From contig CANRFB010000002.1 of NCBI GenBank assembly GCA_947629785.1, positions 94,455 to 158,454 of the forward strand: a stretch of DNA of 64,000 bases, given 5' to 3'. A program made the position numbers and the translations under genes. Under the pieces are notes generated by a model. That model saw only the letters and a list, made by a program, of their open reading frames with translations. It made no database searches and was not told the DNA's origin. Positions 718-58,208 of this stretch are shown here, piece by piece. This DNA comes from an uncultured Clostridia bacterium (lineage in GTDB: Bacteria; Bacillota; Clostridia; Oscillospirales; Ruminococcaceae). How positions within the stretch are numbered: position 1 is the stretch's first letter; each line of letters starts with the position of its first letter.

Positions 718-872
718 TGTCTTGTAACCTCCGTAAAAATCAAATACAATATATTATACCACACTTTCACGTGGTTGTCCAGTATTTTTAAAAATGTTTT
801 TTAAATTTACTGAAAAATACACCACGGTAATTCAATGAGTTAAAAAATATTTAATAATTTATTGTTTTTAAA

Positions 873-900
873 TGACAAAAGCACAAAATTTGCTACAATA
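873..900 (+). promoter_or_regulatory. Putative sigma-A promoter for the structured element at 905-1556
   Basis: ATGACA (873-878), 16-nt spacer, TACAAT (895-900) with an upstream TG (TGcTACAAT, extended -10). Confidence 0.5.
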
Positions 901-904
901 GAAA

Positions 905-1556
905 TAACTTCTTAGTTATTCTATGAACGAGGGGAAGCACCAAAAAGGGAAGGGGCAAACCAGAAACTTGATAGGGACGCGGTGGTTTTCCCCTTCCCTT
1001 TTAGGTTCTCCCCCTCGTGGCTCCCTCTCTCCTTAATCCTATCCCCTTTCGCCCAAGCTACCAAGAGTCTAACCTAAAAAATCGGGCTTATATGTTATTG
1101 CAAACTTTATAGAACTTTGCGAATTTATTCGAGCAAAACTTGAATAGTCCGTTCTGATATATAGAGTTGAACCATCACAACCGGGTTTGTAAAGTACATT
1201 TTACGCTTTGAGTTCAATGTATGACTTTGTTAAGTCTGTCAAAATTTAAGCGTTTAGAGGACTTTACGAAGTCTTACGTGCGTTGCGTACAAAACTTAAA
1301 TTGTCCGTTCTATAAAAGAAAATTCGAGGAAATACCGCAAAGTTTGTAAAGCAAATCATAAAATTTATGATACTTTGTTTATATGTAAATCCTTACGAGC
1401 TTGGGCGAAAGGGGTTAGGATAGAGGAAAAAGGGAGCGCGAGGGAAAAGACCTTAAAGGGAAGGGGGAAAACCACCGCGTTCCTACCGTTTCGTTGGTTT
1501 CCCCCTTCCCTTTTGGGTCTTGTCCCTCGTACGTCGAATAAATAATAAGATTTTTA
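905..1556 (+). ncRNA. Candidate large structured non-coding RNA
   Basis: No credible ORF; hairpin 943-955/990-1002 inside 928-934/1011-1017; second hairpin 1455-1473/1496-1513 inside 1439-1452/1516-1529; perfect 17-bp long-range pairing 1043-1059/1398-1414; the two hairpin arms are inverted copies of each other; promoter immediately upstream. Confidence 0.55.
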
Positions 1557-1637
1557 CTATTTAATCAACTTATTCGTAAAATTAAATTCATAATTTGTTT
1601 ACTCATTAAAATACCGTGAAAAATACACAGAAAACTC

Positions 1638-12169: not shown

Positions 12170-12519
12170 TGGTGGAGATGACGGGAATCGAACCCGTGTC
12201 CGAAAACCTCTCCGCATGAACTTCTACGAGCGTAGTTTGTCATTGACATTCCCTTGCCTTCCCGAGGACAAACACCCCGAAAGGCTTGGTAGCCTGCAAT
12301 ACACCACAGAAACGCAGGCACTTTTCTGTGACGTTCACCGTTAGTCGACGCCCTTGCCTAAGCCACGGTACTCAAAGGCAGGACGGGCAGCGCTTAAGCG
12401 GCTGCCAATTCAAAATTATTGTTGTCGTCTAATTTTAAAACGTCGCCGTTTAAAGAGAATGGCGCTTCCTCTGCTCGCTTATCATGTTTCATGATCCCCG
12501 TCGAAACCTTTACATCCCC
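12170..12519 (-). ncRNA. ssrA: tmRNA (10Sa RNA)
   Basis: Minus strand 5' GGGGATG...3' CGGGTTCGATTCCCGTCATCTCCACCA; internal tag ORF ending ...LDDNNNFELAAA-stop; adjacent to smpB. Confidence 0.93.
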
Positions 12520-58014: not shown

Positions 58015-58029
58015 AATAACCGGCATTTA

Positions 58030-58132
58030 CAGAGTAGGCAAACGCGCGTACAGTGCTTGGCGGACGGGGAGTTGCCGCCTTGACGAAAAACATACTCAGG
58101 TATGTTTGCGGTGCGTTTGCCGCATCCCGCTG
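58030..58132 (+). promoter_or_regulatory. Tetrahydrofolate (THF) riboswitch
   Basis: AGAGTAGGcaaacGCGCGTacAGTGcttggcgGACGGGGAGTTGCCGCCttGACGAA...GCGGTGCGtttgCCGCATCCCGCT, immediately upstream of a folT-like gene. Confidence 0.8.
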
Positions 58133-58208
58133 AAATGCATAACAGGAGCTTTTCATTGGTATCCTCCCGATTATGCAGTTTAGCATAATTATAAGGAGGT
58201 ATATATTT

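Follow-up and report, generated by a model that had tools for sequence, protein, structure and literature searches.

A locus between a lipoprotein/foldase gene and rpiB in an uncultured Clostridia bacterium, described in an earlier note as a single large ornate RNA gene, is likely a case of a structured RNA living in symbiosis with a DNA transposon: a MITE-like copy that carries an inverted pair of dispersed RNA-like units. It lies in a stretch of 64,000 nucleotides (hereafter, the window). Judging from its sequence, the feature is larger than first described and is a complete mobile element of 796 bp (window 823-1618). The earlier interpretation is partly supported: as a structured RNA candidate the unit stands, being conserved, covarying, partly pseudoknotted and biased toward one strand, but the locus as a single RNA gene does not.

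Architecture of the element

The insertion site (Table 1) is intergenic, with the lipoprotein/foldase gene on one side and rpiB, divergently oriented, on the other, and the reported lack of a credible open reading frame in 895-1556 was borne out. Both elaborate hairpins described at this locus were recovered, the left at 927-1018 with 36-nt arms that are 89% complementary and the right at 1439-1529 with 37-nt arms (86%). The left stem at 943-955/990-1002 is indeed a perfect 13 bp, and the right hairpin repeats the left in inverted form, as had been stated. The 17-bp match between 1043-1059 and 1398-1414 is perfect as well, but it did not hold up as a helix closing the core; it is the inner end of an inverted duplication. 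Both hairpins and this match belong to one inverted repeat, imperfect and 158 nt long (902-1059/1398-1555), whose symmetry extends outward past 902 and 1555 to the true ends at 823 and 1618. Pairing between the two linkers was rejected as a conserved helix (36.0 for cognate versus 29.2 for foreign linkers among related elements, p = 0.14). An inverted duplication within a transposon can mimic a single ornate RNA gene.

RNA folding was far stronger than that of shuffled sequence (z = -16.7 on the + strand and -14.2 on the - strand). In place of two separate hairpins, the lowest-energy fold was a fully extended rod formed by pairing between the arms. The core contains a diverged internal direct repeat, ~156 nt (1134-1155/1290-1311). 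The promoter-like sequence ATGACA-N16-TGcTACAAT was found where the earlier note had placed it; based on the alignment, this sigma-70-like site is retained at the P-type left end in most copies. The left terminal inverted repeat (TIR) pattern matched 29 sites in the host genome at three or fewer mismatches, versus one site for a control pattern.

Table 1. Coordinates of the element and its parts in the window
Feature	Position	Strand	Remarks
Target-site duplication (TSD), left copy AAAAATACAC	813-822		10/10 same as 1619-1628
Whole non-autonomous transposon, MITE-like, 796 bp	823-1618	+	TIR ends and TSD; 17 near-full-length genome copies
Left TIR CACGGTAATTCAATGAGTTAA	823-843	+	Left end reads CACGGTAATTCAATGAG...
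Promoter-like site ATGACA-N16-TGCTACAAT	872-899	+	10/12, extended -10
Hairpin unit 1 (H1)	928-1017	-	Probable folded-strand sense, from wobble asymmetry
Linker of unit 1	1018-1059	-	Pyrimidine-rich on +, purine-rich on -; part of R1 match
AT-rich core separating units 1 and 2	1060-1397	+	Folding z = -2.8
Purine-rich linker of unit 2	1398-1438	+	Alignment; R1 match
Hairpin unit 2 (H2)	1439-1529	+	Probable folded-strand sense
Right TIR CACGGTATTTTAATGAGTAAA	1598-1618	-	Inverted copy of left end
Target-site duplication, right copy AAAAATACAC	1619-1628		

Copies and mobility in the host genome

The host genome (3.05 Mb in 162 contigs) contains 17 near-full-length copies that are 78-88% identical, together with several partial ones at contig ends. 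In a scripted count of the copies with both ends located, the window copy and three others (L008, L013 and L014) had target duplications identical at 10 of 10 positions, which none of 4,000 random pairs attained; L002 and L012 reached 9/10 and L007 8/10. Target duplications were also recognized by eye in L004 (AAAAGTTTTA) and L009 (GGGCAATTTT). L003 (7/10) and L006 (6/10) have both ends and no clear target duplication, as expected of recombinant copies. The copies are mosaics, with arms and loops swapped among them; a pair of additional small hairpins occurs in some arms, some copies have ~52-bp tandem duplications at one end, and a 284-bp version with a single hairpin is located at C1:183388-183671.

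Taken together, the 17 copies, the TIRs at both ends, the target-site duplications and the lack of a transposase or other ORF identify a MITE-like non-autonomous transposon. Many genomic copies with target-site duplications, which the earlier note had itself named as the mark of a MITE, are what the host genome holds. A search with the TIR pattern found no autonomous relative with the same ends in the host genome, five congeners or a further carrier genome, G191, and PF01609 genes in the host genome belonged to ISAs1-like copies with different ends (CAGGAC...). Because such partners are often lost, the missing autonomous element does not disqualify a MITE.

The same copies bear on the proposal that the locus is a large ornate RNA gene in its own right, present once in the genome and giving a ~640-nt RNA from 872-899. 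The promoter-like site kept in most copies and the strong folding speak for it, but the 17 dispersed copies with their target duplications largely refute it, Rfam gave no match, and the closing helix is not cognate-specific; we consider such a gene highly improbable.

Several details of individual copies were also observed. The variant arm is found in L006, L008 and L013-L017, and its extra small hairpins CCAACGCAAAGCGTTGG and AACCGCGAAGCGGTT occur together. The ~52-bp tandem duplications of L061 (C41), L060 (C105) and L063 (C26) each contain the junction of hairpin base and outer end. Two copies, L065/L060 and L010/L059 (contig ends C10, C105, C143 and C54 of the host genome), are interrupted at nearly the same place, the hairpin base, by an insertion sequence whose ends are IS231-like (CAATGTCATCAACTTAAG) and which is flanked by 10-bp duplications (CTCGTTGCTC; CCCTCGTGGC); this suggests a target hot spot.

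Distribution of the conserved unit

The unit consists of a GA-rich hairpin, H, with a conserved AACC/GGTT clamp, and a pyrimidine/purine linker, which precedes H on the folded strand in its purine-rich form (UAAGGAAAG..GGGAG). We searched for it with a covariance model of one arm (R1; hairpin H plus linker, 121 positions), whose E-values are rough: unit 1 matched at 928-1049 (E = 2.0e-29) and unit 2 at 1408-1529 on the model minus strand (E = 2.6e-30). Within the genus, 16 of 21 genomes gave matches, and in one of them the number reached 142; matches outnumber the hairpins because one hairpin can match on both strands. The architecture recurs in congeneric genomes, whose elements have diverged strongly in sequence, core and ends. 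Across the family, 33 of 299 genomes, representing 21 of 126 genera, contained R1 matches, often in many copies per genome. A class-wide draw of 392 genomes, which also served to control the specificity of the model for GA-rich sequence of this kind, yielded three positives, all from the same family and none outside it. Carriers include the rabbit-gut Clostridia MAGs Lapin-011, -018 and -025 and the MAG SRR873595 bin.23. The genomes were mostly draft MAGs, and no more than about 12 units were taken from each. A short sequence like TTGAGAGTTAAGAGTTGAGA recurs in or next to several repeats from more than one species of the genus (L015, L051, L049, L036 and L055).

Rfam 15 gave no match to the units in the window or at 36 related loci. 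The only matches were to neighboring tRNAs and, elsewhere in the window, to an ordinary tmRNA gene (12170-12519, - strand) and THF riboswitch (58028-58134, + strand); from the gathering threshold down to E = 10, the units gave only weak sub-gathering matches, mostly to eukaryotic miRNA hairpins. Nothing in Rfam, ROOL, GOLLD and OLE included, matched the locus, which counts against the interpretation in the earlier note, and neither tRNA islands nor OLE partner genes adjoin the element. Clustering of neighboring proteins likewise found no recurrent protein adjoining the units.

Outside Clostridia, exact-pattern matches in Cupriavidus, Gammaproteobacteria and Acidobacteria were mostly judged to be chance. 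A pattern scan of viral contigs gave a single match, a unit adjoining tRNA-Leu in L141 (IMGVR_UViG_3300021400_004534). This contig is likely host DNA called viral, since it carries ordinary host genes and its tRNA-Leu neighborhood is the same as that of the bacterial contig L117. The unit family appears to be previously unlisted and, as sampled, has so far been found only in one family of gut Clostridia.

Covariation, pseudoknot and folded strand

With one unit taken per genome, cognate hairpin arms scored 47.0 and arms exchanged among different genomes 25.7 (p = 1.7e-7); the cognate arms were best in 33 of 36 genomes. In at least nine genera, the loop of H is also complementary over 9-15 bp to a linker-distal segment upstream of the linker, forming a predicted pseudoknot. 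It is present in all copies of G025, G237, G249 and G170 and in most copies of SRR873595, G039 and G003. The sequences vary between genera, each with a matching complement (AAAAATGCGGA, AAAAAATCGGG, CAAAGCGAGGA, AAAGCAGGG, AAAGCGGGGA, AAAGCCGCC, AAAAGTCGG, AAAAATCGGCA, GCAAAAGAGGGCGGG and others). A second loop class, including G000, G014 and G006, is without the pseudoknot. Covariation among homologs, which the earlier note had looked to as a check on its RNA reading, is seen in the hairpin and, in many genera, in the pseudoknot. Template switching or gene conversion can mimic covariation of the hairpin, and less so that of the pseudoknot.

Mispairs in the hairpin stem were counted after aligning the arms with a symmetric score and reading them in unit orientation. 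A.C mispairs exceeded G.T mispairs (67 versus 23 distinct events, p = 4e-6; by clade, 24 versus 3, p = 5e-5) and were spread along the stem, not confined to one site. Because an A.C excess corresponds to G.U on the opposite strand, the folded strand would read linker and then H. A first count of G000 alone, in which wobble counts are small, gave no bias in window + orientation (48 versus 58); the bias emerged after orienting by unit. The linker-linker stem of the dimer palindrome was wobble-neutral in G000 elements (33 versus 43), which is what a side effect of the inverted duplication should show. The G.U:A.C ratio of about 3:1 is weaker than expected for a strictly selected RNA helix, and, as the wobble test cannot tell selection from transcription-linked mutation, a C-to-T strand bias from transcription could contribute to the asymmetry.

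These results bear on the reading of the elements as a plain MITE family, in which the palindromes would matter only as transposon DNA, without a function as RNA, and transposase binding, gene conversion or template switching would maintain the hairpin symmetry. The TIRs, the TSD, the AT-rich outer ends, the intergenic position and the lack of an ORF agree with it, as do the mosaic nature of the copies, in which arms are swapped and ends duplicated in tandem, the equally good folding of both strands and the neutral dimer stem. However, it is the internal unit and not the ends that is conserved across species and genera, whereas the members of a MITE family usually have their ends in common; moreover, the compensated pseudoknots of at least nine genera are not palindromes, and the wobble bias is significant and strand-specific. 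We regard this reading as unlikely. By sequence comparison, the family-wide covarying hairpin, the covarying pseudoknot in many genera and the strand bias show a conserved structured unit.

Association with different transposon ends

The units ride in transposons whose ends differ between hosts. The window element has ends CACGGTATTTCAA and a 10-bp TSD. In G191, a genome in a single contig, the unit lies within a ~660-nt element with ends CAGTYTGTMGAAAAA, located at intrinsic terminators; in L224, L225 and L228, the whole terminator stem-loop (~21-26 bp) is present on both sides of the element, implying an unusually long target duplication. About 77 CAGTYTGTMGAAAAA ends occur across the G191 genome, and their spacing suggests that many belong to shorter elements without the unit. 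The ends in G014/G015 resemble AAATGATAATTTAGC, and G025 has a conserved noncoding block of ~750 nt.

The location in G191, at duplicated intrinsic terminators, and the intergenic placement would suit a bidirectional terminator or insulator repeat similar to REP, SPRITE or BOX, whose strong hairpins act on the transcripts of neighboring genes. However, the hairpins have no following U-tract, a terminator scan of the element body found none, and the window copy lies between divergent genes with no read-through to stop. We judge this explanation to be quite unlikely, more so than a plain MITE.

Proposed mechanism

The reading that we favor, a structured RNA in symbiosis with a DNA transposon, can be set out as follows. 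A non-autonomous transposon jumped into the lipoprotein/foldase-rpiB intergenic region, duplicating 10 bp, as the flanking sequence indicates. Since the element has no gene, its transposase would have to come in trans. The unit RNA would be transcribed from the element's own promoter. The transposon ends would confer mobility and the RNA unit would benefit the element, perhaps by serving in cis as an insulator or a processing module, so that insertions are tolerated, or through binding to a host protein; these benefits are guesses. In many relatives, H would be locked by the pseudoknot between its loop and the segment upstream of the linker. The window copy, an inverted head-to-head pair of units, is without the pseudoknot and may be a degenerate or specialized version. 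It is therefore not the best choice for RNA study, for which G237, G249, G170, G025 and SRR873595 are better suited. More tentatively, the units might form a new class of noncoding RNA, pseudoknotted and carried by transposons, which has combined repeatedly with unrelated DNA transposons within one bacterial family, has reached very high copy number and possibly serves as a functional partner, either as RNA or as RNA-protein, in transposition or host tolerance.

Comparison with known systems

Bacterial MITEs such as Correia, QMITE, BOX and RUP are, like the present element, non-autonomous and intergenic, with TIRs, a TSD, AT-rich ends, a built-in promoter-like site and a predicted structured transcript (PMC10969869). 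Stably structured MITE transcripts and MITE promoters are known (PMC10969869). In contrast, the elements described here have an internal fold common to at least 21 genera (the pseudoknot to at least nine) and ends that differ between hosts, and the window element holds an inverted pair of units; a compensated pseudoknot common to elements with different ends was not among the features found described in PMC10969869. A search of open-access papers on Ruminococcus MITEs or RNAs returned nothing relevant, and the supplement of a microbiome RNA screen (PMC8040213) may hold the motif.

ROOL, GOLLD and OLE (PMC12286853) are similar in size class, elaborate predicted structure and noncoding nature, whereas the present elements are scattered through each genome in numerous copies flanked by target duplications. 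REP/BIME palindromes are also dispersed hairpins, often in inverted pairs, but the hairpins here are much longer and are accompanied by 10-bp TSDs and TIRs. Membership in the REP/RAYT group, which has no TSD and a Y1 tyrosine transposase, is ruled against by the 10-bp TSDs; together with the TIRs, these point to DDE-type transposition instead. HEARO/omega RNAs of IscB elements are also structured, noncoding and repeated, are associated with mobile elements and mostly lack an ORF; unlike them, the units matched nothing in Rfam and have no recurrent neighboring protein.

The closest parallel, a conceptual one, is the IStron, which combines a group I intron with an insertion sequence and in which one RNA class has several transposon partners (PMC4227781). 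The present elements differ in that no group I intron or other Rfam ribozyme was matched and neither a transposase gene nor a sign of splicing was found. Structured RNAs tied to transposons, such as those of IStrons and the omega RNAs, have proved to be important molecular machines, and a covarying RNA-like unit outside Rfam, present family-wide and shared by transposons whose ends differ, offers a concrete lead to another.
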